From a virus, in IMG/VR virus record IMGVR_UViG_3300022187_000245, positions 1-23,585 of that record: a stretch of 23,585 nucleotides of DNA, one strand, 5' to 3'. The notes below the pieces were generated by a model. The model saw only the letters and a program-made list of their open reading frames with translations. It was not told where the DNA came from and searched no databases. Position numbers and translations under genes: made by a program. Positions 1 through 23,585 of this stretch are shown here, piece after piece; position 1 is the stretch's first letter; each line of letters starts with the position of its first letter.

Positions 1-2
1 AT

Positions 3-647
3 AACATATTGGTTATTGGCGATATACACGAGCCTTTCTGTTTAGATGGCTATTTAGAATTTTGCCTAGAACAATACCACACACATAACTGCAACGAGGT
101 TGTATTTATTGGCGATGTCATAGATAATCACTATTCAAGCTATCACGAAACATCTGCTGATGGTATGGGTGGTGGCGATGAGTTAGACCTAGCTATTAGT
201 AAAATAGCAAAATGGTACGAAGCGTTCCCTATTGCAACAGTATTAATAGGCAACCACGACCGTATAATAATGCGTAAGGCACAAACGAGTGCAATCCCTA
301 GTAAGTGGATTAAAAGCTACAAAGATGTCTTAGAAGTGCCTAATTGGAACTTCGTAGAACGCTATGTAAAAGATGATGTGCAATACATACATGGAGAAGC
401 TGGTACTGCAAGAACTAAATGCAGAGCCGATATGATGAATACAGTACAAGGACACTTACATACACAATGCTATACTGAACACTATGTAGGTCAGAAGTAT
501 CGTATCTTCGGCAGTCAAGTAGGTTGTGGTATCGACCACGAGAGTTATGCTATGGCATATGCTAAAGCTGGAAAGAAACCAGCAATAGGTTGTATGGTAG
601 TCAAAGAAAATGGCACACTTCCTATAAATATCCTAATGCCCTTATAA
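3..647 (+). CDS. Calcineurin-like metallophosphoesterase, 5' truncated
   Basis: The reading frame is open to the left edge (codons Asn, Ile, Leu from base 3), so the N-terminus is probably outside the window; a TTG at 9 is the first possible start inside but falls directly before the first motif. Counting from base 9, the metal-binding motifs of the calcineurin-like phosphoesterase fold appear in order: GDIH (4-7), GDVID (35-39), GNHD (81-84) and GHLH (148-151). These normally hold two metal ions and hydrolyse phosphomono- or diesters. Phages often carry such enzymes among nucleotide metabolism or DNA-processing genes, and the substrate cannot be told from sequence. The gene ends just before an AT-rich intergenic region, so it is probably the last gene of an upstream transcription unit. 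Confidence 0.85.
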   Translation, partial: NILVIGDIHEPFCLDGYLEFCLEQYHTHNCNEVVFIGDVIDNHYSSYHETSADGMGGGDELDLAISKIAKWYEAFPIATVLIGNHDRIIMRKAQTSAIPSKWIKSYKDVLEVPNWNFVERYVKDDVQYIHGEAGTARTKCRADMMNTVQGHLHTQCYTEHYVGQKYRIFGSQVGCGIDHESYAMAYAKAGKKPAIGCMVVKENGTLPINILMPL

Positions 648-655
648 TCAGTTAC

Positions 656-699
656 TTACACTTAAAGCGTAACAACGAAGTAACACTAACAAGAATATA
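656..699. repeat. Dispersed 44-bp repeat, copy 1
   Basis: This block matches 10283-10326 with fixed internal spacing: TTACAC, 5 unmatched bases, GCGTAACAAC, 6 bases, then ACAC(T/A)AACAAGAATATA. About 34 of 44 positions are identical. In both places an AT-only tract follows directly (700-769 here). Function unknown; a replication, transcription or mobile-element remnant role are all possible. Confidence 0.7.
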
Positions 700-775
700 C
701 TCTATATATATATTATAGTTTATATATATAATACTATCTAGTATATATATATTTATATAAATATTTTTACAAAAA

Positions 776-808
776 TTTGTTTATATTTAAAAAAAGTGTT
801 TATATTTG
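776..808 (+). promoter_or_regulatory. Bacteroidota-type host promoter for the early operon
   Basis: TTTG at 776-779 and TATATTTG at 801-808 are separated by 21 bp. This fits the known Bacteroidota primary sigma consensus (TTTG, 19-21 bp, TAnnTTTG) with every defined base matched. The predicted transcription start lies near 813-816, about 20 nt upstream of the ATG at 835. The promoter follows about 70 nt of almost pure A/T and has no gene between it and the dense gene block running to 8879, so it probably starts the early transcript with host RNA polymerase. Confidence 0.8.
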
Positions 809-834
809 CCAAAGTATTAACAAAACAACTAACA

Positions 835-1062
835 ATGAAAAATACTATTATTAGTGATAAAAAAATCACACTAACAGAAATTATTGAACAATTAGACATA
901 TGGATTGGAGATGCACAATTTGACATTTCAAATGACCTTCTTGATGAAACTGAAAGAATGGAAATGCAAAACCAAATTCAACAGATGTTGATTGCAAAAG
1001 CAAATCTTGAAACCATAGAGAATTTTGGCGACAAGATTTTTCAAATGTCAATTAGAAGATAA
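835..1062 (+). CDS. Small helical protein of unknown function
   Basis: 75 residues starting MKNTIISDKK. A longer reading with a GTG at 796 is rejected because it would begin inside the -7 promoter element; ATG 835 lies just downstream of the predicted transcript start and follows an A-rich leader (AACTAACA). The protein is acidic to neutral and predicted mostly helical, with an 'ETERMEMQNQIQQMLIAKAN' stretch that looks like an amphipathic helix or short coiled coil. It is the first gene of the operon, a position where phages often place host-takeover proteins, but no family is recognised. Confidence 0.6.
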   Translation: MKNTIISDKKITLTEIIEQLDIWIGDAQFDISNDLLDETERMEMQNQIQQMLIAKANLETIENFGDKIFQMSIRR

Positions 1063-1089
1063 AAAACAACTTTATTTACAAAAACAATT

Positions 1090-1335
1090 ATGGAACTAAA
1101 AAAATTATTTCAAGAAACTTTCCCAAGCTACTACAACGTAAATAGCGAGAAAGAAAGACACATTTATCTATCAACTGCAACAGAAGAAATTAAAGAAACT
1201 ATTGCACGAATAGAAAAACATCGTATAGAAAATATCACAGAAGGTAACTTTGAGATAGCAGAAGGATTAGAGATGGCTAAGAAAGAGATGTACTTTATGA
1301 CTATTGGTATGATACAAAAACAATTAAAGAAATGA
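1090..1335 (+). CDS. Small helical protein of unknown function
   Basis: 81 residues, rich in Glu and Lys and predicted almost entirely alpha-helical ('EEIKETIARIEKHRIENITEG' region and 'AEGLEMAKKEMYFMTIGMIQKQLKK' at the C-terminus). The start is ATG 1090 after the A-rich leader AAAAACAATT typical of Bacteroidota. The stop codon overlaps the ATG of the next micro-gene (ATGA at 1332-1335), which indicates translational coupling. No recognised family; probably a soluble early phage protein. Confidence 0.6.
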   Translation: MELKKLFQETFPSYYNVNSEKERHIYLSTATEEIKETIARIEKHRIENITEGNFEIAEGLEMAKKEMYFMTIGMIQKQLKK

Positions 1336-1433
1336 GCAGAGACACAAAAATAACATACGCTTTAGGGTTAAGTCTAGCCACCCTTTTAATAGTGCTAGAT
1401 ATATTAGGAATTATTAATTTAGTCGCATATTAA
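1332..1433 (+). CDS. 33-residue single-span membrane peptide
   Basis: A short frame from ATG 1332 (ATGA overlap with the upstream stop) to TAA 1431-1433. It encodes a polar start (MSRDTK) followed by a strongly hydrophobic stretch to the end (LGLSLATLLIVLDILGIINL), long enough for one membrane helix. It exactly fills the gap between the genes ending at 1335 and starting at 1435. The overlap, gap filling and clean hydrophobic profile suggest it is real. Function unknown; early-expressed phage membrane peptides can alter the host envelope or energy state, but this is inference. Confidence 0.5.
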   Translation: MSRDTKITYALGLSLATLLIVLDILGIINLVAY

Positions 1434-1434
1434 T

Positions 1435-1824
1435 ATGACAAAGCAAGAAACATTAAACAGAGTGTTTAAAGATAACGGATTAACTTCTGATGATTTGTTT
1501 AAGCACCAGCACTACACTATCATTACTCGTAGTGGCATAGACAAGATACAAGCAAACCTAAGTATATATATCTCTTACGAGGTTATACGATGTGAGCCAA
1601 ACTTTGCAGTAGTTAAGGCTAGTGCTAACCTACACGAAGAAAGTGCCATAGAAACCTTTGGAAGTGCCTTAAAAGGCGAGGGTTACAAAGATGGTAACAC
1701 TAACTCTTGGTATGTTATGGAAATGGCAGAAAAAAGAGCTATGAGTAGAGCAGTATTAAAGTTAGCTGGACTTTACGCATTAGGTGTGTTTGGCGAAGAT
1801 GAAAGTGAAAGTTTTAAAAGATAA
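1435..1824 (+). CDS. Putative ssDNA-annealing or recombination-associated protein
   Basis: 129 residues. The most telling part is the C-terminal half: 'WYVMEMAEKRAMSRAVLKLAGLYALGVFGEDE' region (about residues 92-124), where a helix with AEKRA-(M)SRA-hydrophobics is followed by an acidic tail. Helices of this pattern occur in Erf/Rad52-like and related phage annealing proteins. The N-terminal half reads as mixed alpha/beta, with a strand-rich 'ANLSIYISYEVIRCEPNFAVVKASANL' segment. The gene lies directly upstream of an SSB-like gene, the usual place for a single-strand annealing protein. The family call is by pattern and context only, so it remains tentative. Confidence 0.45.
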   Translation: MTKQETLNRVFKDNGLTSDDLFKHQHYTIITRSGIDKIQANLSIYISYEVIRCEPNFAVVKASANLHEESAIETFGSALKGEGYKDGNTNSWYVMEMAEKRAMSRAVLKLAGLYALGVFGEDESESFKR

Positions 1825-1847
1825 ATTAACCAATTAAATTAAATATT

Positions 1848-2180
1848 ATGAGTTTAGAAATGAAAGGTAAGTTAGTCAAAGTATTAGACTTACAAAGTGG
1901 AACTAGCAAAGCTGGTAAACAATGGGTAAAGCAATCGTTTGTAATTGACACAGGTAGTCAATACAATTCAGAGTTATGCTTTAATCTGTTCGGTCAAGAT
2001 AAAGTAGATTTACTTAGAGATGTAACAATAGGCGATGAGGTTACTGTATTGTTTAACCTATCATCAAGAGAGTATAAGGGCAACTACTATACATCTGCTG
2101 ATGCTTGGAAGTTTAAGCAATCTAAAGAAGAAAAGTTAGAGAGTTTTGATAATGCCTTTGGCGATGATAATCCTTTTTAA
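1848..2180 (+). CDS. ssb: DUF3127 / SSB-like OB-fold single-stranded DNA-binding protein
   Basis: 110 residues. Residues 5-90 follow the Bacteroidota DUF3127 pattern: 'KGKLVKVLDLQSGTSKAGKQ', then a Phe-Val-Ile strand, a 'CFNLFGQDKVDLL' segment, 'IGDEVTVLFNLSSREYKGNY' and a final Trp-containing strand. This is an OB-fold arrangement. The last residues are acidic and end in Asp-Asp-Asn-Pro-Phe, matching the SSB C-terminal tip (acidic residues followed by Pro-Phe) that docks partner replication proteins. It probably coats ssDNA during phage replication and recombination, together with the gene upstream. The start is ATG 1848 after an A/T leader; MKGK at residue 5 is an alternative start. Confidence 0.8.
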   Translation: MSLEMKGKLVKVLDLQSGTSKAGKQWVKQSFVIDTGSQYNSELCFNLFGQDKVDLLRDVTIGDEVTVLFNLSSREYKGNYYTSADAWKFKQSKEEKLESFDNAFGDDNPF

Positions 2181-2182
2181 TT

Positions 2183-2539
2183 ATGTATGAAACTTTCCCA
2201 TATTATACGCAAGATGGTATAAACAAAGGTTCTGATTATGAATGTGCTAAAAACGAGTACGGATTATTAGACTTTGCTAATAAAAGATTTATTATAAAAA
2301 CTATACCACCAGCAGACGATACGATAGTTAAGAAAACTTTGATAACATTTAAAAACAATACTTTAGGTGCAGTTGTTAAAAGCGATATGTTTACAGGTCG
2401 CAGTTATGTAGATAACGTATATGCTAAAGGCATAGTGTTTAAAGGTACAGACAAAGAACTAGATAGCTACGCATTAGAATTAATGAGTAAGGGATATAAC
2501 ATACAAGATTTTTACGATTATGAAAAAGACAACAAGTAA
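2183..2539 (+). CDS. Conserved-looking small protein, unknown function
   Basis: 118 residues beginning 2 nt after the SSB-like gene's stop, so it is surely co-translated or closely coupled. It contains many Tyr/Asp residues (MYETFPYYTQDG at the start) and a central strand-rich part 'FANKRFIIKTIPPADDTIVKKTLITFKN'. The C-terminus is 'YALELMSKGYNIQDFYDYE'. No catalytic motif, membrane segment or Cys cluster is present. Its position in the replication/recombination block suggests a DNA metabolism role, but no family is recognised. Confidence 0.6.
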   Translation: MYETFPYYTQDGINKGSDYECAKNEYGLLDFANKRFIIKTIPPADDTIVKKTLITFKNNTLGAVVKSDMFTGRSYVDNVYAKGIVFKGTDKELDSYALELMSKGYNIQDFYDYEKDNK

Positions 2540-2714
2540 ACTATTAGAAAAGGCTCAATCCCTAGTTACTACGGTAACAGGTACTGACATACCTAAGACC
2601 ACTAGGCAAGAGGTAATGAAAGATGTAAGGGCAATCTATCGAAAGATAAAAGAAATTGAACCTGACATTTATAAGATATTAAACGATGACGATAACCATA
2701 AAACTACAAGGTAA
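2520..2714 (+). CDS. Small basic/helical protein, unknown
   Basis: 64 residues; the start at ATG 2520 overlaps the preceding gene by 20 nt, and its stop TAA shares its last base with the next ATG (TAATG at 2712-2716). It is Lys/Thr-rich with a predicted helix 'TTRQEVMKDVRAIYRKIKEI' and a polar C-terminus. Nothing points to a known family. The chain of overlaps with both neighbours supports it as real. Confidence 0.5.
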   Translation: MKKTTSKLLEKAQSLVTTVTGTDIPKTTRQEVMKDVRAIYRKIKEIEPDIYKILNDDDNHKTTR

Positions 2715-2896
2715 TGTTATATGAGATAATAAAAAAATACGACCTATCTGAAATAGAAGTATTAAGTATAGTACACGAGTGGTACACAATGGGTTTGTAC
2801 GAAGATATACTTATGGACGAAGATGGTGATGAATTAGATGAAATTTGTGAACAAAGAATAGATGTAATATTAAAAAACAATTATGAACTTAACTAA
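2714..2896 (+). CDS. Small acidic protein, unknown
   Basis: 60 residues, strongly acidic in its second half ('YEDILMDEDGDELDEICEQR'). It overlaps the upstream stop by 1 nt and runs 14 nt into the next gene. Such short acidic phage proteins sometimes mimic DNA or bind host enzymes, but no specific evidence is visible here. The operon position and translational coupling are the only support for function in early phage development. Confidence 0.5.
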   Translation: MLYEIIKKYDLSEIEVLSIVHEWYTMGLYEDILMDEDGDELDEICEQRIDVILKNNYELN

Positions 2897-3526: not shown

Positions 3527-3530
3527 AATT

Positions 3531-3746
3531 ATGAAATTGACACAAAAAGAAAAAGTACTAAGACATCTGCAAGAGGTAGGTGCATTAACTCCTGTTCAAG
3601 CGTTCTTCGATTATAGTATTATGAGATTAGCAGCGATAGTCTTTGATTTAAAAGATGATGGCTATGACATAGAAACTACTATACTCAAGAGTGAGAATAA
3701 GTTTGGAGAGCCTGTAAGATACGCACAGTATAAACTAATAAAGTAA
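3531..3746 (+). CDS. HTH_39-type winged helix-turn-helix protein
   Basis: 71 residues matching the small phage/mobile-element helix-turn-helix family HTH_39 over its whole length: 'LTQKEKVLRHLQEVGALTP' as the first helix, 'QAFFDYSIMRLAAIVFDLKD' as the turn and recognition helix, and a 'GYDIETTI' plus 'YAQYKLIK' beta wing. The usual family length is about 70 residues. It should bind DNA and could regulate early transcription or replication. It lies 4 nt after the previous gene and overlaps the next by 1 nt (TAATG). Confidence 0.75.
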   Translation: MKLTQKEKVLRHLQEVGALTPVQAFFDYSIMRLAAIVFDLKDDGYDIETTILKSENKFGEPVRYAQYKLIK

Positions 3747-4339
3747 TGCAAGGTTACATTAAGCTACATCGTAAGATATTAGATAATGGAGTGTTTGCAG
3801 ACGCAGAACTACTAAAGGTGTTTGTGTGGTGCATACTCAAAGCCAACACGACACCTAACGTAGTCTATGGTAGAAAGGTAGATGTGGGTGAGTTTATTAC
3901 AGGTAGGATAACTGCAAGTGAAGAACTATACCTAAAGCCATCAACTATTTACAAGCGTTTACAGAAGTTAAAATCACAAGGGTATATAGACATATCAAGT
4001 ACTACTAAAAACTCTCTTATAACTGTCGTAAACTATAAGTCTTACCAGCTTGATGATAAGCCTAGAAAGAAGCGCAACTTAGATACTGTTACTAATAAGT
4101 TTCTAATGGAAGTTTCTGCATTTAAAGAACTGTATAGTGTTGAGATGTTAGAAGCCTTTATAGACTATTGGACAGAGCCTAACAAGTCTAAGACTAAGTT
4201 GAGGTATGAATTACAAAAGACTTTTGATATTGCACGTAGGCTAAAGACTTGGAGTAAGAACGAAAGTAAATTTGGAACTAAAAAGAATAATGTAATGGAC
4301 ACTTGGCAAAGTGTTAGAAACGAGATGTTAAATGACTAA
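3746..4339 (+). CDS. Phage replisome organizer-like winged-helix replication protein
   Basis: 197 residues. The N-terminal 105 residues have the phage replisome-organizer pattern: 'GYIKLHRKILDNGVFADAEL', a Trp-containing helix (VFVWCILKANT), a 'VGEFITGRITASEEL' segment, a recognition helix 'LKPSTIYKRLQKLKSQGYI' and a wing 'NSLITVVNYKSYQ'. A Lys/Arg linker follows. The C-terminal part (about residues 120-180) includes 'FIDYWTEPNKSKTKLRYELQ' and 'FDIARRLKTW', a conserved motif in Bacteroidota phage replication proteins. It likely binds the phage origin and recruits the helicase loader or helicase. The next genes fit a replication block. Confidence 0.65.
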   Translation: MQGYIKLHRKILDNGVFADAELLKVFVWCILKANTTPNVVYGRKVDVGEFITGRITASEELYLKPSTIYKRLQKLKSQGYIDISSTTKNSLITVVNYKSYQLDDKPRKKRNLDTVTNKFLMEVSAFKELYSVEMLEAFIDYWTEPNKSKTKLRYELQKTFDIARRLKTWSKNESKFGTKKNNVMDTWQSVRNEMLND

Positions 4340-4460
4340 GAAGAAATTAGTAACTTGCTCACCATATAAATTACTTATGGGATATGAGTATGAGTATAAA
4401 AAGGATAGAATGATTTACAATAAACAATATAAACGCAAAAAGAAAAATGAGAGTATTTGA
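4332..4460 (+). CDS. 42-residue basic peptide
   Basis: A short frame, ATG 4332 to TGA 4458-4460, bridging the replication protein (overlap 8 nt) and the next gene (overlap 14 nt). The product is highly basic with several Tyr residues (for example KLLMGYEYEYKKDRMIYNKQ and a KRKKK cluster near the end). It fills an otherwise empty 107-nt gap in a region where genes are contiguous. It could be a nucleic-acid binder or a chance ORF; function unknown. Confidence 0.4.
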   Translation: MTKKKLVTCSPYKLLMGYEYEYKKDRMIYNKQYKRKKKNESI

Positions 4461-4839: not shown

Positions 4840-4976
4840 GAGAGATATATTTAATAGCATTAATACTAGGTATAGCTTATACAGGACTTACATTATACTT
4901 TCAATGGCGAACTGATAAACAATATGATGAATGGCTAAAAAGACAAAGACACACGCACAACTTAAAAAAGAATTAG
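4836..4976 (+). CDS. 46-residue single-span membrane protein
   Basis: ATG 4836 lies in an ATGA overlap with the upstream stop, and the frame runs to TAG 4974-4976, 46 nt into the NinG gene. Residues 4-22 form one hydrophobic helix (IYLIALILGIAYTGLTLYF), followed by a polar, positively charged tail (QWRTDKQYDEWLKRQRHTHN). The hydrophobic N-terminus and basic cytoplasmic-type tail suggest a small inner-membrane protein. It fills the gap between 4839 and 4931. Function unknown; a holin or superinfection-exclusion role is possible but unsupported. Confidence 0.5.
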   Translation: MREIYLIALILGIAYTGLTLYFQWRTDKQYDEWLKRQRHTHNLKKN

Positions 4977-5332
4977 ACAAACACTTTAGCCAATACATTA
5001 GGTGGGCATACGCTGATGATAGTGGAATGGTTGAGTGTTATACTTGTGGTGTAGTCAAGCACGTCAAAGAGATGCAAAATGGTCATATGCAGTCTAGGAA
5101 ACATACTAGCACGAGATGGCACGAGCATAATTGTCGCCCACAGTGCGTAAAGTGTAATATTTATTCGGAGGGTGAAAAGATACGCTTTTACAGAAGATTA
5201 TGTAGTGAGATAGGCGAACAAGAAGCAGAAGAAATAATACAACTTAGCCATAAATCTGTTAAATACTCAAAGTCAGATTTAGAATATCTGATAGAAATAT
5301 ACAAACAGAAAGTAAAAGACTTATGTGGATAA
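4931..5332 (+). CDS. ninG: NinG/Rap-like recombination endonuclease
   Basis: 133 residues matching the lambda NinG (Rap) family: a charged N-terminal helix 'LKKELDKHFSQYIRWAYADD', a first zinc-ligand pair CYTC (C36, C39), the central 'MQNGHMQSRKHTSTRWHEHN' segment with Gly-His 51-52, and a second Cys pair CVKC (C72, C75) in 'RPQCVKCNIYSEG'. Family members cut branched recombination intermediates such as Holliday junctions and D-loops, and have an HNH-like metal site. Family length is usually 130-200 residues, so this is a compact version. Together with the SSB-like and annealing-type genes it suggests a phage-encoded recombination route. Confidence 0.85.
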   Translation: MAKKTKTHAQLKKELDKHFSQYIRWAYADDSGMVECYTCGVVKHVKEMQNGHMQSRKHTSTRWHEHNCRPQCVKCNIYSEGEKIRFYRRLCSEIGEQEAEEIIQLSHKSVKYSKSDLEYLIEIYKQKVKDLCG

Positions 5333-6520: not shown

Positions 6521-6792
6521 AAACACCAAATTATTACAAAGGAACTTATTACAAAATGGAAGCGCACGAAGTTATCGAGGACTTTTGTGGCAACAACTAT
6601 AACTTAGGTGTAGCACTAGCCTACTTAATGAGAGCTGGTAAAAAAGAAGATAACGATATATCTAAGGACATACAAAAGGCAATAGACCACCTCAACTTTG
6701 AACTTAAAAGGCAAGAGCATCTGAACGAAGAACAGAACGAATTAAACGATATTAACGATAAATTTTTTAAAAGTGCAATCAGTACCTATTAA
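6517..6792 (+). CDS. DUF3310 protein
   Basis: 91 residues. Residues 3-65 fit DUF3310: 'PNYYKGTYYKMEAHEVIEDF', then 'YNLGVALAYLMRAGKK' and 'DISKDIQKAIDHLNFELKRQ'. The family includes the SaV-type phage proteins sometimes called nucleotide kinases, though their enzymatic role is unproven. The C-terminal 25 residues are acidic and Asn-rich. It overlaps the downstream ParB-like gene by 20 nt. It follows the zinc-ribbon genes and ends the middle region before the packaging genes. Confidence 0.8.
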   Translation: MKTPNYYKGTYYKMEAHEVIEDFCGNNYNLGVALAYLMRAGKKEDNDISKDIQKAIDHLNFELKRQEHLNEEQNELNDINDKFFKSAISTY

Positions 6793-7216
6793 TAGCATAC
6801 GCAATAACCCTATTAATCCTAGATTAGTTAATAAGGCAAAATTCGAAAAACTAAAGAAGTCAATACAAGACTTCCCACAAATGCTAGAACTAAGACCGAT
6901 AGTAATAAATGAAGATGGTATTATACTAGGTGGTAATATGAGATATAAAGCATTAGTAGAATTAGGGTACAAAGAAGTGCCTGTAATAGTTGCAGAGCAT
7001 ATTACTAAAGAACAAGAGAATGAGTTTATAATAAAAGATAATTTAGGCTTTGGCGATTGGGATTGGGATATACTAGCTAATGAATGGGATAGTGTAGAGT
7101 TAGAAGATTGGGGATTAGATGTATGGCTTAATGAAGATGATATAATAAATAGCTTTGATGAAGAAAACGAACCACAACCAAAGGACAAAATAGTATGTGC
7201 CTTGTGTGGTAAATAA
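6773..7216 (+). CDS. ParB/Srx-fold N-terminal domain protein
   Basis: 147 residues from GTG 6773. Residues 1-75 match the ParB-like N-terminal (ParB/sulfiredoxin) fold: 'PINSIRNNPINPRLV', 'ELRPIVINEDGIILGGNMRY' with the Gly-Gly-(N)-x-R motif at about 53-57, then 'YKEVPVIVAEH'. The rest carries 'LGFGDWDWDILANEWDSVEL', a pattern seen when such domains accompany methyltransferase or packaging genes, and ends in a lone 'VCALCGK', half of a zinc knuckle. In phages these proteins may bind DNA or nucleotides (CTP is bound by ParB). Placed directly before the terminase, it may act in DNA recognition, but this is speculative. Confidence 0.7.
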   Translation: MQSVPINSIRNNPINPRLVNKAKFEKLKKSIQDFPQMLELRPIVINEDGIILGGNMRYKALVELGYKEVPVIVAEHITKEQENEFIIKDNLGFGDWDWDILANEWDSVELEDWGLDVWLNEDDIINSFDEENEPQPKDKIVCALCGK

Positions 7217-7225
7217 TTACAAAAT

Positions 7226-7597
7226 ATGACACCTATGCAAGATAGAACAGAAAAAGGTAAGATAGCGATGCTAGAAGCATTAGAGAAAACATTGGGAGTA
7301 GTTACATCAGCTTGTAAGTTAGTTAATATTACAAGGGAAACACATTATAGATGGCTCAAAGAAGATGAAGCATATAAGTTAGCAGTTAAGAGTATTGATG
7401 ATGTAGCGATAGACTTTGCAGAAAGCCAACTACACAAACAGATAGGCAAAGGTAAAACACAAGCCACTATATTCTACCTAAAGACTAAAGGCAAGAAAAG
7501 AGGTTATGTAGAGAAACAAGAGTTAGATATATCGGGAGAGTTTAAGCCTATTACAATAACTCTAATGCGAGATGATGAAAGCGAAACTAACGGATAA
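7226..7597 (+). CDS. terS: Terminase small subunit
   Basis: 123 residues starting at ATG 7226, 9 nt after the ParB-like gene. A helix-turn-helix lies at about residues 22-45 ('LGVVTSACKLVNITRETHYR' then a Trp-Leu), followed by 'AIDFAESQLHKQIGKGKTQA' and 'TIFYLKTKGKKRGYVEKQEL', the central oligomerization and basic region typical of TerS (phBC6A51-like). The C-terminal end overlaps the large-subunit gene by 26 nt. TerS recognises the packaging site and activates TerL; DNA packaging starts nearby. Confidence 0.85.
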   Translation: MTPMQDRTEKGKIAMLEALEKTLGVVTSACKLVNITRETHYRWLKEDEAYKLAVKSIDDVAIDFAESQLHKQIGKGKTQATIFYLKTKGKKRGYVEKQELDISGEFKPITITLMRDDESETNG

Positions 7598-8879
7598 ACA
7601 ATGGTTAGCGATTGACTACCTAACAGACAAGACCACAACAGAAGTACTGTATGGTGGTGCTGCTGGTGGTGGTAAGAGTTTCTTGGGTTGTGCTTGGATT
7701 ATATGGTTATGCACTTCACACGATGGTATAAGATGTATGATAGGTCGTAGTAAGCTAGACAGCCTAAAGAAAACAACACTAAACACTTTCTTTGATGTAT
7801 GTAGTCAATGGGGGATAGAAGCCAACACACATTACAAATACAACGCATCAAGTAACATCATAACGTTTTACAATGGTTCAGAGGTTATACTAAAAGACTT
7901 ATTCCAATACCCATCAGATAGGAACTTTGATAGTCTAGGTTCATTAGAACTTACTGCTGCATTTATAGATGAGTGCAACCAAATAACAGAGAAAGCTAAA
8001 CAGATAGTAAGCAGTAGGATAAGATACAAGCTAGACCAATACAATCTAATACCAAAGGTTCTTATGACTTGCAACCCTAGTAAAGAATGGGTATATAGTA
8101 CGTTCTACAAACCACACAAAGAGAATAGGCTACCTAAATATCGGAAGTTTATACAATCGTTAGTAACCGATAATAGGCATATATCTAAGCACTACAAAGA
8201 CCAGCTAGAGAAACTCGACCACATAAGTAAGCAACGACTACTATATGGTAATTGGGAGTATGACGATAGCGAAGATAAGCTAATAAACTACAACGCTATA
8301 CTAGGTGCATTTGAATTACAAGACACTCCTAGTGGTACAGGTTACATAACTGCTGACATCGCAAGGTTTGGTAAAGATAAGACAGTAATAATCTATTGGA
8401 ATGGACTAAGAGCCGAGTATTTTAAGGTGCTAGACACTAATAGTATTACACAAGCAGCAGATGAGATACGCACAATACAGAGAAACTACAACGTATCACT
8501 AGGTAATATTATAGTCGATGATGATGGTGTAGGTGGTGGTGTTAAGGATATATTGAGATGTAAAGGCTTTGTAAACAATTCTAAGGCACTTAAAAAAGAA
8601 AACTATATCAACCTTAAGACACAATGCTATTATGCTCTTAGCGAGGCTCTAAATAAGTCTAAGGTGTATATTAACTGCACTAATATAACCCACAAGAATT
8701 ATATTATACAAGAATTAGAGCAAGTAAGGCGTAAGAACTTTGATAAGGACACAAAGCTACAACTGATAAGTAAAGATGAGGTTAAAAGTGCTATTGGTCG
8801 TTCTCCTGACTTTAGTGATGCTTTAGCTATGCGAATGTACTATGAACTAAAACCACAAGGTGTTTACTATGTGCAATAA
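7572..8879 (+). CDS. terL: Terminase large subunit
   Basis: 435 residues with both parts of a TerL. ATPase: Walker A GGAAGGGKS (28-36), Walker B with Phe-Ile-Asp-Glu (131-134), and coupling motif MTCNPS (165-170). Nuclease: acidic residues in 'ITADIARFGKDKTVI' (Asp 262), the 'IIVDDDGVGGGVKD' segment (Asp 316-318) and 'SPDFSDALAMR' (Asp 413, 416), arranged as in an RNase H-like fold. This motor pumps DNA into the prohead through the portal and cuts it. Length is normal. The two candidate starts (7572, 7575) differ by one Met. The gene is followed directly by a GC-rich hairpin. Confidence 0.95.
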   Translation: MMKAKLTDKQWLAIDYLTDKTTTEVLYGGAAGGGKSFLGCAWIIWLCTSHDGIRCMIGRSKLDSLKKTTLNTFFDVCSQWGIEANTHYKYNASSNIITFYNGSEVILKDLFQYPSDRNFDSLGSLELTAAFIDECNQITEKAKQIVSSRIRYKLDQYNLIPKVLMTCNPSKEWVYSTFYKPHKENRLPKYRKFIQSLVTDNRHISKHYKDQLEKLDHISKQRLLYGNWEYDDSEDKLINYNAILGAFELQDTPSGTGYITADIARFGKDKTVIIYWNGLRAEYFKVLDTNSITQAADEIRTIQRNYNVSLGNIIVDDDGVGGGVKDILRCKGFVNNSKALKKENYINLKTQCYYALSEALNKSKVYINCTNITHKNYIIQELEQVRRKNFDKDTKLQLISKDEVKSAIGRSPDFSDALAMRMYYELKPQGVYYVQ

Positions 8880-15619: not shown

Positions 15620-15764
15620 GGTAATAGAACTAAAACTAATGGGCGATGTTATCGCAGTAGGGTTTAGTGCATTTAAAGATGTACTACCTATGATAACTAA
15701 GTATAAAGATAAAACAGATTTTAACGAGATAATACTAGGAAAATGGCAGATAGGAGTGAAGTAA
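15612..15764 (+). CDS. 50-residue protein overlapping the tape measure start
   Basis: ATG 15612 overlaps the previous stop (8 nt) and the frame runs to TAA 15762-15764, 22 nt into the tape measure gene. The product is neutral and partly hydrophobic ('KLMGDVIAVGFSAFKDVLPM'). It fills an otherwise empty 120-nt gap. A small ORF between fibre and tape measure could be a tail chaperone or connector, but no similarity is visible, so function is unknown. Confidence 0.45.
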   Translation: MDKVIELKLMGDVIAVGFSAFKDVLPMITKYKDKTDFNEIILGKWQIGVK

Positions 15765-17437
15765 TAATGGAACTAAAAGCCGATGTTGGCGATGCTAAGA
15801 AAAACTTAGAGCAAGTCAAATCATCGGTACAAGACATAGGTGAAGCAAGTAAGACTACTGCAAAAGCCACAACAGGTATTAGAGATGGTATTAAGGGTGT
15901 AGGAGTAGCATTAAAGGCTGCTGGTATTGGTTTAGCACTTAAAGCATTTGAGATGCTTAGTGAAATCTTTATGAAGAACCAAAAGACTGCTGACTTCTTT
16001 AATACTGCATTTGAGGCTACAAGTATAGCTATCAATGACTTTGTAAACTTTGTATTCAATAACTTTGGTAAGGTTGCAGACTTCTTTAAAGACGTTTTTG
16101 AGAACCCTGTTGAGAATTTGAAGTCATTGGGTAATGCAATTAAAGATAATTTAATAGAACGCTTTAATAGTGCAATAGAGGTAGCTGGTTTACTTGCCAA
16201 CACTATTAGTTTGTTAGTTGCAGGTAAATTTAAGGAAGCTGGTGTAACCATTAAGGAAGCTGGTAAAGAAATGGTCGATGTAGTTACAGGTGTTGATGAT
16301 AGCACTACTAAGATAGCAGAAACATTTAACGAGGTAACGGAAGCAGTAGTAGATTATACTAAAGAAACTATAAATAGTGCTAAGGCTAATGTAGCACTAC
16401 AAAAACAAGCCGAACTATCACAAGTTAAGATACAAGGTCTTATAGAGAGTTATGATAGACAAGCAGAGAAGTTAAGGCAAGTAAGAGATGATGAAAACCA
16501 AACTTTTGAAGATAGAATAAAGGCTAATGAAGAACTTGGTGTAATATTAGAAGAACAAGCAAAACAGATGTTAGCTTTGCAACAAATACAAGTTAAGGCT
16601 GCACAAATTGAATACGATAAATTACAAAATCAAGAAAACTTAATAGCACTTACAGAAGCACAAAACGAGTTACTAGCTATTGAAGCACAAATAACAGGCT
16701 TTCAATCAGAACAACTTACTAATCAAGTATCTTTACAAAGAGAGTTACAAGATGTAAAGAAGGAATTAGCATTAGAGGGTGTAAGCGAAAGAGAAAGAGA
16801 GTTAATAGAAGTAGAGCAACAGTATGATGAACTATTTAGATTAGCCGAAAAAAGTGGTACTGATATTACTGCATTAGAAGAACAGAAAGCTAAAGCCATT
16901 AATGAGATACGCAGACAACAAGCTATGGCAGACTTAGATACTGCTAACGCTAGTTTAGAGAATATAAAACAAATAATGGGCGAAGAAACTAATGCTGGTA
17001 AAGCAGCAGCAGTAGCACAAGCAACAATAAACACTTATCAAGGTGTATCAGAAGCTATTGCAAGTAGTCCACCACCATTAAACTTTGTATTAGCTGCTAC
17101 AACACTTGCTGCTGGTTTGCAAAACATAAATAAGATACTATCAGTACAAGAGCCACAATTTGCACAAGGTGGTTTAGTAGGTGGTTATGGTACAGGAACG
17201 AGTGATAGTGTTAGTGCAAGACTATCTAAGGGCGAAAGTGTAATAAATGCACGTAGTACAAGAATGTTTAAACCACTTCTAAGCGCAATTAACGAAGCTG
17301 GTGGTGGTAGGTCATTCGCAAGTGGCGAGGGTGTAGGAGGTACGACTATGGGAGTTGTAAAAGCCTTTGTAGTAGCTGATGATATGACTAAGCAACAAGA
17401 TAAATTAAGTAAAATAAGAAGAAAAGCAACAATTTAA
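15743..17437 (+). CDS. Tape measure protein
   Basis: 564 residues. Residues 1-45 are a charged helix; 45-65 and 145-165 are hydrophobic; a long coiled-coil region spans about 205-400 ('QAELSQVKIQGLIESYDRQA', many Glu, Gln, Lys and Ala). Near the C-terminus, 'GKAAAVAQATINTYQGVSEA' and 'FVLAATTLAAGLQNINKILS' precede a Gly-rich segment at 475-500 ('FAQGGLVGGYGTGTSDSVSA') and 'RLSKGESVINARSTRMFKPL'. This arrangement is typical of siphovirus tape measure proteins. The length implies a fairly short tail of about 85 nm using 1.5 A per residue. It overlaps the small upstream gene. Confidence 0.85.
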   Translation: MADRSEVIMELKADVGDAKKNLEQVKSSVQDIGEASKTTAKATTGIRDGIKGVGVALKAAGIGLALKAFEMLSEIFMKNQKTADFFNTAFEATSIAINDFVNFVFNNFGKVADFFKDVFENPVENLKSLGNAIKDNLIERFNSAIEVAGLLANTISLLVAGKFKEAGVTIKEAGKEMVDVVTGVDDSTTKIAETFNEVTEAVVDYTKETINSAKANVALQKQAELSQVKIQGLIESYDRQAEKLRQVRDDENQTFEDRIKANEELGVILEEQAKQMLALQQIQVKAAQIEYDKLQNQENLIALTEAQNELLAIEAQITGFQSEQLTNQVSLQRELQDVKKELALEGVSERERELIEVEQQYDELFRLAEKSGTDITALEEQKAKAINEIRRQQAMADLDTANASLENIKQIMGEETNAGKAAAVAQATINTYQGVSEAIASSPPPLNFVLAATTLAAGLQNINKILSVQEPQFAQGGLVGGYGTGTSDSVSARLSKGESVINARSTRMFKPLLSAINEAGGGRSFASGEGVGGTTMGVVKAFVVADDMTKQQDKLSKIRRKATI

Positions 17438-17447: not shown

Positions 17448-18719
17448 ATGCCTTGTAAAGAATGTGATAACGGAAAGTATAAATGGGGTGATGGTGAATG
17501 TAAATACGACACCCTACAAGAGTGCGAGAAAGCACACGATACTTATGACATCGTAGAACTGATTGTAGATGAGAATAACGAAGAACTAGCAATAGATGCT
17601 ATATCTTTGGTAACAAGTCCAGCAATAGAAACTGACTTTGTATATTTTAACGACATAGAGAGCAACTTAACACTTGCTAAGGTAAACGAAGAAGAAAGAC
17701 TGCTAGTAAGTCCAGCACTTATACCTTACAAACAGATATACAGGTACGATGCTAACAAAGATAGAAACTACTATGTGTATTTTACTGCTGATACAGTACG
17801 TAAGGCTGCTGAAGCGTATATGAAGCACCAAAACACTAACAATGCGACCTTACAACACGAAGAAAAGGTTACAGGAGTGCATACAGTAGAGAGTTGGATA
17901 GTAGAAGATAGCAAAAACGATAAGAGTAACTTATATGGCTATGAATTGCCAAAGGGTACTTGGTTTGTATCTATGCGAGTAAACAACGATGAGGTTTGGG
18001 AACGTATCAAGAGTGGCGAGTTGAAAGGTTTAAGTATAGAGGGTTACTTTGTCGATAAGATGGAAACACTAGCTAAGACTGATAAGAAAAAGAAAAAGAA
18101 AAAGAAGTACGCACAAGTAGGCGAGATAGATGGCTTCCCTGTATTTGACAATATAGAAGATGCAGTTGAGGTTGCTAAAGAGTTAGGTTGCGAGGGTTAC
18201 CACGAACACGAATTAGAGGGTAATACAGTATATATGCCTTGTTCTGACCACGAGATACTAGACACACTAGCAACTATCTTAGAAGAAGATTGTGGGTGTT
18301 TTGATACTGACTTAATTACACCTAATCCTTGTCAAGAGGGGTACGAGCCAATAGGACATAAGATAAAAGATGGTCGTAAAGTACCTAACTGCGTACCTAT
18401 TGAAGCAGAAGTAGAATTAGAAAGTTATACTGACTATCCTAAAGGTGCTACTAGCAACGCTAAGAGAGCAATAGAGTGGAAAGAAGAAAATGGTAGTGAC
18501 TGTGGTACACAAGTAGGCTGGACAAGAGCAAGACAACTAGCAGATAGAAAGCCTATAAGCAGAGATACCATAGCACGTATGGCAAGTTTTAAAAGACACG
18601 AACAACATAAAGATGTACCCTATTCAGAGGGTTGTGGTGGTTTGATGTACGATGCTTGGGGAGGCGATAGTGGTATTAATTGGGCTATAAGAAAATTAGA
18701 TAAAATAGACACAAAATAA
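17448..18719 (+). CDS. XkdF-type prohead protease with extra domains
   Basis: 423 residues. The N-terminus is Cys-rich ('MPCKECDNGKYKWGDGECKY'). The protease part (about 35-205) follows the XkdF pattern: 'NNATLQHEEKVTGVHTVESW' with a His at 137, and 'GLSIEGYF' with a likely nucleophile Ser196. A run of eight Lys (213-220) links to 'DAVEVAKELGCEGYHEHELE' and 'NTVYMPCSDHE', then 'GYEPIGHKIKDGRKVPNCVP' (about 298-317). A C-terminal domain follows: 'YPKGATSNAKRAIEWKEENG' to 'WGGDSGINWAIRKLDKI'. Such fused modules occur in Bacteroidota and T4-like head proteases. It should cleave scaffold and capsid during head maturation. The non-protease modules have no established role. Confidence 0.75.
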   Translation: MPCKECDNGKYKWGDGECKYDTLQECEKAHDTYDIVELIVDENNEELAIDAISLVTSPAIETDFVYFNDIESNLTLAKVNEEERLLVSPALIPYKQIYRYDANKDRNYYVYFTADTVRKAAEAYMKHQNTNNATLQHEEKVTGVHTVESWIVEDSKNDKSNLYGYELPKGTWFVSMRVNNDEVWERIKSGELKGLSIEGYFVDKMETLAKTDKKKKKKKKYAQVGEIDGFPVFDNIEDAVEVAKELGCEGYHEHELEGNTVYMPCSDHEILDTLATILEEDCGCFDTDLITPNPCQEGYEPIGHKIKDGRKVPNCVPIEAEVELESYTDYPKGATSNAKRAIEWKEENGSDCGTQVGWTRARQLADRKPISRDTIARMASFKRHEQHKDVPYSEGCGGLMYDAWGGDSGINWAIRKLDKIDTK

Positions 18720-19763: not shown

Positions 19764-19770
19764 TTAAAAA

Positions 19771-20673
19771 ATGAGTTTTTCAATAACTTCAAACTATTCA
19801 GGTGAACACGCTGGTCAGTATATTGCTGCTGCGTTGAAATCTGCTACATCTCTTGAATACTTAAACGTATTAGAGAATGTAAAAACTAAAAGAAACATCA
19901 CTAAAGTTGCTGGTGCTGATTTAGTAAGAAACGCATCTTGTGATTTTACTGATAGTGGTACACTAACTTTAACAGAAAGAGTATTAGACCCTAAAGAATT
20001 ACAAATCAATGTAGACCTTTGTAAAAAAGACCTACTTGCTGATTGGCAAGCTGCTCAAATGAGAGCTGGTGCGCACAACAGAGATATGTCAGGTGACTTT
20101 ACTGCATTTGTTATGTCTTATCTAAGTGGAACTATTGCTGATGCAGTAGAGAGTTCTATTTGGAGTGGTGCAGATGCTACAACAGGTCAGTTCGAGGGTT
20201 TCTTGACTGCTAGTACAGGTTTATTTGCTGGTGATGCATCAGTAGGTACTGATAGTGCCTCTGCTGCTTATGATGCTAGTAATGTAATTGCTAACATACA
20301 AGGTTTAGTAGCTGCTATTCCAGCACAAGTTTACACTAAAGAAGATTTGTATATCTATATGAACGCTAAAACTTATCGTTTCTATATTTCTGCTATCTCT
20401 GCTTTATCTGCATTCCCTTTCAATCATATGGGTCAATACACTCCTGAATTTGAGGGTGTTAAGATTGCAGTTTGTCAAGGTATGCCTGACAACCAAATGG
20501 TAGCTGCTCAAAAATCTAACTTATTCTTTGGTACAGATTTAATCTCTGACCACTCTGAAATTCGTATGTTAGATATGGCTGACTTAGATGGTTCTGATAA
20601 CATCAGAGTTGTAGCTAAGTTTACAGGTGGAGTTCAGCATGGAATTGGTGCAGACATCGTACACCAATCATAA
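19771..20673 (+). CDS. Major capsid protein (HK97-like)
   Basis: 300 residues directly after the scaffold gene (7-nt gap). The N-terminus contains 'GQYIAAALKSATSLEYLNVL', followed by 'TLTERVLDPKELQINVDLCK', a long helix 'AFVMSYLSGTIADAVESSIW', and a C-terminal sheet 'EGVKIAVCQGMPDNQMVAAQ', 'NLFFGTDLISDHSEIRMLDM', 'VVAKFTGGVQHGIGADIVHQ'. The arrangement (N-arm, spine helix, P- and A-domain strands) is typical of Bacteroidota HK97-fold capsids. Size and position after protease and scaffold support the call. Codon use appears relatively rich in optimal AT codons. Confidence 0.85.
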   Translation: MSFSITSNYSGEHAGQYIAAALKSATSLEYLNVLENVKTKRNITKVAGADLVRNASCDFTDSGTLTLTERVLDPKELQINVDLCKKDLLADWQAAQMRAGAHNRDMSGDFTAFVMSYLSGTIADAVESSIWSGADATTGQFEGFLTASTGLFAGDASVGTDSASAAYDASNVIANIQGLVAAIPAQVYTKEDLYIYMNAKTYRFYISAISALSAFPFNHMGQYTPEFEGVKIAVCQGMPDNQMVAAQKSNLFFGTDLISDHSEIRMLDMADLDGSDNIRVVAKFTGGVQHGIGADIVHQS

Positions 20674-20687
20674 TTAAAATAAGTACA

Positions 20688-20705
20688 GGGGGGTGAAAAC
20701 CCCCC
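20688..20705 (+). terminator. Perfect G6/C6 hairpin after the capsid gene
   Basis: GGGGGG (20688-20693), loop TGAAAA, CCCCCC (20700-20705), 14 nt after the capsid stop. It is a strong stem but is followed only by TTAACTAAT, so it may partially terminate or protect the capsid mRNA 3' end while letting transcription continue to the next gene. It stands out as the most G+C-rich stretch in the region. Confidence 0.65.
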
Positions 20706-20728
20706 TTAACTAATAAAACACAAAGAAT

Positions 20729-21274
20729 ATGGCTTGTGAATTAACAACAGGTAGAGCATTAGATTGTAAAGACATCATCGGTGGTGTAAGAGCAGTTTAT
20801 TTCTGTCAATTAGAAGATGCTACTGTAACTCATAGTGCTGGTTCTGTTTCTGACTTGGATATTACTACGGACTTGTTTAAATACAACGTAGTAAGGGGTA
20901 CTGCTTCATTTACTGAAACAGTAACTGCAAGTGCTGAAAATGGTACGGTATTTTATGAGCCATCAGTAAATGTAAAACTACACAAACTAAGTGTAGCAGA
21001 CCAAAACGAAATTAAATTATTAGCACAAAACAGATTATTAGTATTTGTTGAAACAAATGGTACTAACTCTGCTGGTAAGAGAGTTATCTTTTGCTTAGGT
21101 GTTACTAATGGTATGGAACTTACAACAGGTACTGCTAATAGTGGTGTAGCATTTGGTGATATGAATGGTTACGATTTAACTTTCGTAGGTATGGAAGATA
21201 GTCCAGCTTTAGTAGTTGCAGACTATACTACTACACCTTTCGATAATGCAGATTTTACAGTAACTGTATCGTAA
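20729..21274 (+). CDS. Putative major tail tube protein
   Basis: 181 residues. The start 'MACELTTGRALDCKDIIGGV' (Thr-Gly-Arg...Cys-Lys-Asp...Gly-Gly-(I/V)-(K/R)) is characteristic of a Bacteroidota phage tail tube group. The rest alternates beta strands: 'TASFTETVTASAENGTVFYE', 'PSVNVKLHKLSVADQNEIKL', 'RVIFCLGVTNGMELTTGTAN'. It directly follows the capsid gene and the G6/C6 hairpin and precedes a clear terminator, so it belongs to a highly expressed late unit. The protein at 10404 is the alternative tube candidate. Confidence 0.6.
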   Translation: MACELTTGRALDCKDIIGGVRAVYFCQLEDATVTHSAGSVSDLDITTDLFKYNVVRGTASFTETVTASAENGTVFYEPSVNVKLHKLSVADQNEIKLLAQNRLLVFVETNGTNSAGKRVIFCLGVTNGMELTTGTANSGVAFGDMNGYDLTFVGMEDSPALVVADYTTTPFDNADFTVTVS

Positions 21275-21292
21275 TTATCAATATAATTTAAG

Positions 21293-21322
21293 AAAAAGGT
21301 GGGTTTATCCCACTTTTTTTTT
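21293..21322 (+). terminator. Rho-independent-type terminator
   Basis: AAAAAGGTGGG (21293-21303), loop TTTAT, CCCACTTTTT (from 21309), with the G at 21298 bulged. Nine T residues (21314-21322) follow the stem, the best intrinsic terminator in the window. It ends the unit containing the putative tube protein. The T tract also overlaps a TTTG (21320-21323) that could be a -33 element for the next gene. Confidence 0.8.
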
Positions 21323-21348
21323 GACTAATTGTAAATAAAACATAGTTT

Positions 21349-21363
21349 TTTATATTTTATATT
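21349..21363 (+). promoter_or_regulatory. Repeated AT-rich leader, copy 3
   Basis: TTTATATTTTATATT directly before ATGG, identical to copy 2. A TTTG at 21320-21323 could pair with TAGTTTTT (21343-21350, 19-bp spacing) as an imperfect Bacteroidota promoter, or the TATATTTT core could act as a -7-like element giving a nearly leaderless transcript. It lies right after the terminator, so a new transcription start here is plausible. Confidence 0.55.
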
Positions 21364-21768
21364 ATGGTGGTAATAAATAAAGGAGTAGCAAACGAGTTAT
21401 ACTTTAATCTTACAAGTAAGAAAAGATTGACTAGCAGTCCATATATATTTATTAAGTTTACCAATGATATGACTAAACAAAGCTATTTTGTTAATCCTAC
21501 TGAAACTGTTGAGCCTAGACATAGCAAAGTAGACTTTACAGAGGGTACAGATATTAGTTTAGGTGCAGAGGGGTTCTATACTTATGTAATTTATCAAGTT
21601 ACTACTAACGATTTAACTGATGATAGTACATTAACTGATGCAAGGATTATAGAACGAGGTAAGGCATTAGTAAAAGATGCTAGTGTAACAGAGGTATCGT
21701 ATACTCAATACACACCAACAAGCAATAAGAATACAACAAATAGTAACACACAATACATAAGTATATAA
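21364..21768 (+). CDS. Virion structural protein, unknown detail
   Basis: 134 residues. Beta-rich: 'ELYFNLTSKKRLTSSPYIFI', 'KFTNDMTKQSYFVNPTETVE', 'GAEGFYTYVIYQVTTNDLTD' and an acidic 'ARIIERGKALVKDASVTEVS' segment, ending in a Thr/Asn-rich tail. The pattern of 'Y-(I/L)-F-x-F-T-N-D' is often found in small structural proteins beside Bacteroidota tail genes. Its stop overlaps the next start by 1 nt. Its exact place in the virion is unknown. Confidence 0.55.
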   Translation: MVVINKGVANELYFNLTSKKRLTSSPYIFIKFTNDMTKQSYFVNPTETVEPRHSKVDFTEGTDISLGAEGFYTYVIYQVTTNDLTDDSTLTDARIIERGKALVKDASVTEVSYTQYTPTSNKNTTNSNTQYISI

Positions 21769-22154
21769 TGGATTTAAACTTTGAAAATAAAGCAAAAAGC
21801 GAATTAGATAGAATTACGCTAAAAGCAGAAAAGGTAGAGTTAGCATTAAATGAAGATATTAAAAAAAATGTTGATGAAATTATTTTTAACTCACAAGGTG
21901 TTAATGATATATTAAAGATATTAAAAAAAGAAATACCAACATTAAGAAAATTAATAGATGATGGTAAAAATAGTTCAGCAGATAATATAAAACTTGTGCA
22001 AAAAACAGAACAATTAGTTAATAAGTATGTAAAAGCAGCAAAAGAAATAGGACTTCCAAAATCTTTAATTGATGTACCTGTCAATTATTTTGAAAAAGCT
22101 AAAAAAGAAGCAGAAGATTTAAAAAAACAAATTCAATCTATATCAGACATTTAA
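21768..22154 (+). CDS. Helical coiled-coil protein, copy B of a related pair
   Basis: 128 residues, highly charged and helical: 'KAEKVELALNEDIKKNVDEI', 'LKILKKEIPTLRKLIDDGKN', 'KTEQLVNKYVKAAKEIGLPK' and a final 'YFEKAKKEAEDLKKQIQSIS'. It shares 'KAEKVELA' near the N-terminus and 'AKEIGL' in the second half with the protein at 18750. The start lies in a TAATG with the previous gene. As with copy A, it sits among structural genes and may be a minor virion or assembly protein. Confidence 0.6.
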   Translation: MDLNFENKAKSELDRITLKAEKVELALNEDIKKNVDEIIFNSQGVNDILKILKKEIPTLRKLIDDGKNSSADNIKLVQKTEQLVNKYVKAAKEIGLPKSLIDVPVNYFEKAKKEAEDLKKQIQSISDI

Positions 22155-22175
22155 AAATTATAATAAATATATAAA

Positions 22176-22451
22176 ATGGCAGTAAAAAATACAACAGATT
22201 TATTAAACGAGCAATTAGGTAAGAAAGGTAAAACAAGAATAATTACTACATCAGCAGTAACAGGTGCAGATTTTTACGCAGTACACTTTGTAACAGAGTG
22301 TGTAATTGCTTCTATTACAGCAGGTAACTTAGATGGTTCAAGTGCTAATCCATCAGCATTAGCAACTACTATACCAGCAGGTACAGTATTATTTATGAAC
22401 ATTACAGGTATCACTTTAACAAGTGGAGTAGCAATAGGATATAACAACTAA
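22176..22451 (+). CDS. Small beta-rich virion protein
   Basis: 91 residues from ATG 22176 after an A/T-rich leader. The central and C-terminal parts are beta strands ending in a Gly-Thr-Val-Leu-Phe-Met-Asn-Ile-Thr-Gly-Ile-Thr-Leu segment and a final 'SGVAIGYNN'. This is typical of small phage decoration or fibre-base proteins. Four bases separate it from the large fibre gene that follows. No specific role can be read. Confidence 0.5.
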   Translation: MAVKNTTDLLNEQLGKKGKTRIITTSAVTGADFYAVHFVTECVIASITAGNLDGSSANPSALATTIPAGTVLFMNITGITLTSGVAIGYNN

Positions 22452-22454
22452 TAT

Positions 22455-23585
22455 ATGTTAGGATTAGGTTTAGCATTAAGTGTAGGTAGAAAACTACTAG
22501 GCGATGCCATAGGTCGTTTGATACAAGAGTTATCTATTAGAGGTACTTATAGTGAGAACCTAATAGATACTAGAAATATAATTACCGATATAGATGATGC
22601 TGATGTACTAGACAAAGCTACTATATTACTTACTCCTACTGCAACAAGTGATGCAAGGGTACACTCTGTAAAGACTTATACAGGTGATGAACTTTTGGAC
22701 GTATCAAGTTTAAGTGGTACTAATTGGACTGCTGATGGTAGTGGTGGATTTACAAATAATGGTTCAGGTGAAGGCTTAAACGGAAGCCTTAATGAAAATA
22801 CAATAATAGGGGCAACGTATAAGTTTACTTTTGACGTTACTATTAGTGGAATTGCTAACGCTACGTTTGGAGGAGTTACAATACCTGTCTTTACTACATC
22901 AGGTTCTAAGGAATACTATGTTATTGCTACAAGTTCTTCTACAAGTTTTAGTTTTTATTTAGCTCCATCAGGTAGCCCATCTATGTTTGTTAACAACATA
23001 TCAATAGTAGATGTATCATCAGACTTTGACTTCGATAGAGCAAGTAGTGCTACAAGAATAAACTCTGATGGTTTAGTACAAGATATGCAGAGTATTACTG
23101 ACCCTGAATTAGTTACTAATGGTACGTTTGATACAGATAGTGATTGGGTTTTGGGTACAGGTTGGAACATAGCAGATGGACATTTAAACTTTGATACTGA
23201 CGATGGCGAAAATAACGCACAACAACAAGGTTTATTAACTGTTGGCAGAATTTACAAAATGACTTTTGATGCTAATGTAACAACAGGAACGATTAGATTT
23301 GAAAGTGGAACAGGAAGTAATTTATTAATAACATCTAGCGACACTACGGTAGAGCATATATTTGAAGCTGATTTAACTGCATTGGTATTCAGAAGAAATG
23401 TAACGCCAACTAGAGGTTATATAGACAACATATCAGTAAAAGACATTACATTTAGTGAAGATGTAGATTTAGCTAGAATAAACTATGATAGTAATGGAGA
23501 GAATGGTCATATATTGTTAGAGCCTACTTCTACTAATCTTATTACTTATAGTGAGGATATAGATTCTCTTAATGATGGTGATGGC
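22455..23585 (+). CDS. Tail fibre / receptor-binding protein, 3' truncated by the window edge
   Basis: Open from ATG 22455 to the last base; 377 residues visible. The N-terminus is hydrophobic and helical (LGLGLALSVGRKLLGDAIGR). Two jelly-roll, carbohydrate-binding-module-like segments follow: about 78-187 (with 'IIGATYKFTFDVTISG' and 'FVNNISIVDVS') and 217-330 (with 'GWNIADGHLNFDT', 'LLTVGRIYKMTFDANV', 'YIDNISVKDI'). Typical phage fibre signatures are 'DRASSATRINSDGLVQ' (194-209) and 'LLEPTSTNLITYSED' (354-368), with the second jelly roll sitting between them. It probably recognises host surface polysaccharide. The C-terminus and binding tip lie outside the window. Confidence 0.7.
   Translation, partial: MLGLGLALSVGRKLLGDAIGRLIQELSIRGTYSENLIDTRNIITDIDDADVLDKATILLTPTATSDARVHSVKTYTGDELLDVSSLSGTNWTADGSGGFTNNGSGEGLNGSLNENTIIGATYKFTFDVTISGIANATFGGVTIPVFTTSGSKEYYVIATSSSTSFSFYLAPSGSPSMFVNNISIVDVSSDFDFDRASSATRINSDGLVQDMQSITDPELVTNGTFDTDSDWVLGTGWNIADGHLNFDTDDGENNAQQQGLLTVGRIYKMTFDANVTTGTIRFESGTGSNLLITSSDTTVEHIFEADLTALVFRRNVTPTRGYIDNISVKDITFSEDVDLARINYDSNGENGHILLEPTSTNLITYSEDIDSLNDGDG

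Follow-up and report, generated by a model that had tools for sequence, protein, structure and literature searches.

Broad and continuing avoidance of restriction sites in a small tailed-phage genome from IMG/VR

Introduction

Restriction avoidance is a known phenomenon, and the DNA described here, 23,585 bases with 33.6% G+C from IMG/VR record IMGVR_UViG_3300022187_000245 (positions 1 to 23,585; this whole stretch is called the window below), is a strong case of it. Its source is a tailed phage, the host of which is probably a marine member of the Bacteroidota, a flavobacterium. According to Rusinov et al. 2018 (PMC6286503), double-stranded DNA phages nearly eliminate Type II restriction sites, with observed/expected ratios below 0.1 and more strongly if they are non-temperate, and eliminated sites account for 7.1% of Type II phage–site pairs. 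The window resembles the phages of that survey in its near-complete elimination of Type II sites: with models that correct for composition, known sites of this type have ratios of less than 0.1. Among catalogued specificities (Biopython 1.87) with an expectation of at least 8, 44 of 242, asymmetric sites included, are eliminated from the window, compared with 7.1% in the survey, the site sets and thresholds of the two figures being different; once nested specificities are removed, 28 irreducible ones are left.

A second comparison is with plasmids, which, according to Shaw, Rocha and MacLean 2023 (PMC10359461), avoid 6-bp palindromes, the more so when they are small and of broad host range. 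The window is part of a phage, not of a plasmid, but it is likewise a small element with broad avoidance of 6-bp palindromes. The reasoning of these authors, that an element may adjust its sequence instead of encoding protective functions, suits a phage of 29 kb in which no methyltransferase was found. Among individual phages, Staphylococcus phage K has eliminated GATC and GGCC, and T7 has eliminated GATC, as in the window. Flavobacterium phage 11b, the nearest annotated relative (54.8% identity in the terminase), shares the elimination of GGCC and CCGG, but has only four irreducible eliminated specificities, and its ratio for 6-bp palindromes containing G or C is 0.58, compared with 0.20 for the window. 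We consider, with a probability of about 0.92, that the phage evades the Type II enzymes of its hosts because its genome is kept free of their recognition sites, the breadth of the avoidance probably coming from the pooled repertoire of a host population.

Words absent from the window

Expected counts were obtained from three null models, namely a first-order Markov model, a second-order Markov model and shuffles that keep the encoded proteins and the codon usage, and were compared with exact counts over positions 1 to 23,585. GATC is absent, with 30.6, 49.3 and 36.7 ± 4.6 copies expected from the three models, respectively, and its deficit is beyond doubt. GGCC is also absent (14.7, 11.7 and 9.4 expected), a strong deficit, as is CCGG (6.5, 1.0 and 4.6 expected), for which the deficit is moderate when the window is taken alone; the absence of CCGG is only modest evidence because CCG itself is rare. 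An initial annotation, made from the sequence, had reported the absence of these three words, and the zero counts agree with it; the 15–20 copies of GGCC and of CCGG that it expected from base composition were somewhat high.

The list of three proved to be correct but far from complete. CATG occurs just twice, at 390..393 and 20638..20641 (35–73 expected), GANTC once (32–50 expected) and GCNNGC once (23–28 expected), and there are no copies of CGCG (7–9 expected), CTRYAG (34–39 expected), CCNGG or GGNCC. In the Markov check of tetranucleotide palindromes that the annotation had proposed, the deficits of GATC, CATG, GGCC and CGCG persist, with CCGG at a second-order expectation of only 1.0. Asymmetric words are affected as well: CATCC, CTCAG, ACTGG, CCAGA and CCGC all have counts of zero. 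We found no 5-mer or 6-mer depleted on a single strand, as in a Type III-like asymmetry, at the threshold used. CCAGC is over-represented, with 53 sites compared with 24 in codon shuffles, and CCAGA, CCAGG and CCAGT are all at zero; this excess has probably arisen as a side effect of the avoidance. AATT, with 171 copies compared with 225 in codon shuffles, shows a mild depletion but no elimination.

It is very improbable that these gaps stem from the base composition, from the choice of codons or from biased mutation. The window does under-use the dinucleotides CG (0.59) and TC (0.52), which lowers the expectations, and the second-order expectation for CCGG is as low as 1.0. However, shuffles that preserve the codons still yield 36.7 copies of GATC, 34.7 of CATG and 39 of CTRYAG, and CTSAG is absent whereas CTWAG exceeds its expectation. 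Gapped palindromes such as GANNNNNNTC, which are low relative to codon shuffles, were not counted, TC being under-used overall.

A general structural avoidance of palindromes or hairpins, unlinked to restriction, is likewise very improbable. It draws on the depletion, as a class, of 6-bp palindromes containing G or C, of which there are 56, compared with 280–303 from the Markov models and 190–223 in ten codon shuffles; ACTAGT, TCTAGA, TGTACA, AAGCTT and CTGCAG all have zero counts. On the other hand, 6-bp palindromes made of A and T are hardly lowered (203, compared with 195–218 from the Markov models and 218–263 in the shuffles), TAGCTA, TTGCAA and AGTACT are kept (23/16, 11/12 and 8/8 observed/expected, respectively), words that are not palindromes, CATCC, ACTGG, CTCAG and CCGC for example, have been lost, and the avoided sets differ between relatives (see below). 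The annotation's remark that palindromes were not lost in general thus holds for the tetranucleotides, with GTAC, TGCA, CTAG, AGCT and GCGC all kept, but not for the hexanucleotides.

Purging of new sites among relatives

If avoidance is maintained by selection, sites newly created by mutation should be missing from relatives as well. A scan of IMG/VR with the terminase large subunit of the window gave 572 relatives, of which 80 were kept. Those that could be aligned to the window in stretches of at least 500 bases and 80–97% identity (18 loci) provided 94,706 alignment columns with 11,303 substitutions, which are not mutually independent, and the expected numbers of new sites were calculated with the substitution rates seen for each base and codon position. 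No GATC had been created, compared with 101 expected, and only one CATG (112 expected) and one GGCC (22.9 expected); for CCGG and CGCG the figures were 0 against 12.7 and 0 against 12.4, so that, with the relatives added, the deficit of CCGG also becomes clear. ACAGC/GCTGT, which is avoided clade-wide, had been created three times, compared with 56.6 expected.

The control palindromes, in contrast, were created more often than expected (GTAC, 182 against 117; CTAG, 135 against 81; TGCA, 151 against 122; AGCT, 192 against 153). ACGT (77 against 87) and GCGC (22 against 31) were near expectation, and TCGA (19 against 67.5) and AATT (252 against 370) were partly suppressed. Selection against new sites is therefore ongoing. 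Because base and codon-position rates are controlled, and GTAC, CTAG and TGCA arise freely, the test also speaks for specific purging rather than mutation bias, and for GATC and CATG the shuffles and the substitutions together already refute an origin in composition. In the mechanism that we propose, a mutation that creates a new site would lead to the genome being cut on entry, and the site would thereby be purged.

Identity and number of the avoided specificities

Restriction sites catalogued in the REBASE-derived list of Biopython were compared with the depleted 5-mers, words containing an avoided palindrome or CCGC being excluded and depletion being defined as observed/expected below 0.15. 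Eight of the 12 depleted 5-mers are catalogued 5-bp sites, compared with 31 of the 416 non-depleted ones (Fisher P = 9e-7); for 5-mers with three G/C positions, the corresponding figures are seven of eight depleted words (below 0.2) and 19 of 134 (P = 2e-5). An earlier comparison of known sites with other words was dropped, as its very degenerate sites made it too permissive, and this strict version was used instead. The avoided words are restriction sites, their overlap with catalogued specificities being far beyond chance.

A greedy search in which words explained by earlier ones were discarded left 19 motifs, with P values of about 1e-5 or less; some of these overlap (GATCD with GATC, CATGH with CATG), so that the number of independent specificities is roughly fifteen or higher. 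The 28 irreducible catalogued specificities of the window compare with 4–13 in up to 23.6 kb of eleven named phages, including 13 in Lactococcus phage c2 and 12 in Bacteroides phage B40-8. For comparison at equal length, 12-kb slices of the window contain 14–18. Control loci of at least 12 kb, chosen by convenience among those fetched with four unrelated phage queries or from the prophage-bearing genomes, were treated with the first-order null: five of 169 reach at least 12 irreducible specificities in 12 kb, and four reach at least 15, while the maximum among the 38 controls with a G+C fraction of 0.40 or lower is 11. In the family of the window itself, 26 loci of at least 12 kb have a median of 7.5 and a maximum of 18.

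All four controls with at least 15 came from the query with the methyltransferase of Bacteroides phage B40-8. These phage contigs (L357, L360, L345 and L338) have 15–25 irreducible specificities per 12 kb, and L357, with 25, surpasses the window. That such breadth is unique to the window is ruled out by the controls that reach 12 or more; it lies at the extreme tail but is not unique.

Differences between lineages

The window and its relatives (58 sequences of at least 6 kb) differ in what they avoid. ATAT, TATA, TTAA, AATT and TGCA are never eliminated in any of them. Of the 55 sequences in which the expectation for GATC is at least 7, 27 lack this site, 23 have it and five are intermediate. 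GTAC is missing from L034 (0 of 80 expected) and kept in L043 (54 of 78), two sequences that are 84.6% identical over 12.9 kb; ACGT is missing from L024 (0 of 33) and kept in its relative L021 (25 of 38); and L065 has lost CTAG (0 of 63). The record of L034 (15,405 bases), without the GTAC that its close relatives keep, also has a match to an N6/N4 methyltransferase.

The same data bear on the source of the breadth. If a single host strain or species, rich in restriction–modification (R-M) systems, imposed all of the specificities, avoidance should be constant within a clade, and GATC, CATG, CTRYAG and ACVGC are indeed avoided throughout the clade of the window; moreover, PF00145 methyltransferases are common in the bacterial family that we sampled (90 of 199 genomes of the Flagellimonas family, with up to six matches in one). 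Other specificities, however, relax between close relatives, CCAGD being absent from L005 (0 of 37) and kept in L006 (18 of 38) within that clade, and each enzyme type tested occurs in at most five of the 199 genomes. We therefore regard a single host as rather unlikely. More than 15 independent specificities, some palindromic and others asymmetric, are avoided, and lineages switch between sets; both points suggest instead that selection has accumulated from the restriction systems of a whole host population, and not from a single enzyme.

Methyltransferases and candidate hosts

Under our preferred reading, a phage without a recognisable DNA methyltransferase would escape Type II restriction through a site-free genome. 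Consistent with the initial annotation, which saw no methyltransferase gene, we found no methyltransferase domain among the scanned proteins (a subset of the open reading frames) of the window and of the overlapping contig L134, which covers most of the remaining genome, and there were no matches to PF01555, PF02086, PF00145 or PF05869 in the near-identical whole record of L001 (G001). Such families do occur among the relatives: of the 80 records, 50 were searched, with PF01555 in three, PF02086 in none, PF00145 in eight (six over the cut-off) and PF05869 in one. Short proteins of approximately 210–230 amino acids in L011, L031, L052 and L070 match the N-terminal part only of the C5 methyltransferase profile, and are possibly split or reduced enzymes.

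With regard to hosts, a scan of genome contigs for prophage relatives gave 32, the best terminase being 55% identical. Five genome regions with related prophages, from cultured or named Bacteroidota, have few eliminated specificities (none in L085, L087 and L088, four in L089 and two in L096), and avoidance is therefore not a trait common to the lineage. Among 199 Flagellimonas-family genomes, enzymes over the cut-off were of the DpnII type in three, the IceA/NlaIII type in one and the HaeIII type in five, and a methyltransferase adjoins the DpnII-, NlaIII/IceA- and HaeIII-type enzymes where coordinates were compared. The comparison with flavobacterial R-M systems that the annotation had suggested thus bore out the existence of cognate gene pairs for GATC, CATG and GGCC in the likely host family, although each is rare. 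This rarity would favour a varied host population over one set of enzymes. The annotation's proposal of selection by host restriction remains the best-supported cause, with purging in 18 relatives, the match to catalogued sites, the switching of avoided sets and the cognate R-M pairs all on its side.

Several observations nevertheless weigh against our interpretation. Across all 5-mers, the median observed/expected ratio of known sites is not shifted (1.03 compared with 1.10 for the others, P = 0.14), because most known sites are not avoided and the effect sits in the tail. For several of the depleted words the list used contains no enzyme with a 5-bp site, namely ACAGC (6 observed, 35 expected), CTGGC (0, 11.5), CGCTC (0, 8.6), CGGCA (1, 8.3) and CACCG (1, 7). 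In a by-eye comparison of the 50 relatives, carriage of a methyltransferase did not visibly track the retention of sites: L031, the sole record with a Dam-like gene, keeps GATC (11 of 13), and so do several relatives without a detected gene, these records being partial. The terminases of the nearest cellular prophage relatives are only approximately 55% identical to that of the window, and the DpnII family was found in none of the 12 genomes with related prophages that were chosen from the 32. Each cognate enzyme is found in just 0.5–2.5% of the sampled likely host family. Finally, L113, a Prevotellaceae metagenome contig, has 14 eliminated specificities, although it may be phage rather than host.

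Genome layout and genes

The window is probably about 80% of a circularly permuted genome of approximately 29 kb. The L001/L134 contig is 99.9% identical to it over 15.1 kb and reaches 3.7 kb past its start, and L136 places its two ends approximately 5.5 kb apart, from which the permuted layout follows as probable; L134, L136 and L138 together assign both ends of the window to one genome of this size. The 3,739 additional bases of L134 encode the C-terminal part of the portal protein, an endolysin and a holin, and they too lack all of the avoided sites, the sole exception among those listed being one ACVGC. The proteins scanned in the window and in L134 (a subset of the open reading frames, with part of the gap covered by a related contig only) include no integrase, and the phage may be virulent.

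The genes assigned all lie on the plus strand. The terminase large subunit (7572..8879; PHROG phrog_2) was the query used for relatives. Protein matches identify a single-strand DNA-binding protein (1848..2180), a DnaD-like helicase loader (3746..4339), a tail tape measure-like protein (15743..17437) and a head maturation protease-like protein (17448..18719). The protein at 19771..20673 belongs to phrog_11320, a family without an assigned function, and its position makes it the probable major capsid protein. A stand-alone ParB_N-domain protein (6773..7216) resembles the N-terminal part of ParB–methyltransferase fusions, which are among its closest PHROG profiles; it lacks the methyltransferase domain and ends with a short Cys-containing tail.

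A NinG/Rap-like junction endonuclease is encoded at 4931..5332, and a phage nuclease that degrades host DNA could in principle oblige the phage to avoid that enzyme's own sites. We consider this the least credible of the explanations: NinG-type enzymes act on junctions, a single enzyme cannot account for fifteen or more unrelated specificities, and the scanned proteins yielded no nuclease of the restriction type.

Implications

The points of most interest are the breadth of the avoidance, its extension to asymmetric sites, the way in which close relatives differ in their avoided sets and the clade-wide avoidance of ACAGC/GCTGT. A small phage that excludes more than 15 independent specificities indicates how far site avoidance can go where no protective enzyme has been found. 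Only tentatively do we suggest that the restriction repertoire pooled in a marine host population can be read from this genome, specificities for which no 5-bp enzyme is listed among them. If this is true, the avoided words, ACAGC/GCTGT for example, would point to restriction enzymes that still await isolation, and related phages with switched sets would map the turnover of host R-M systems. The list of avoided words amounts to testable predictions of host enzymes and may help to find the hosts of uncultured phages, and the switches between lineages of uncultured relatives could serve to follow, and to date, the pressure that restriction exerts in the sea.

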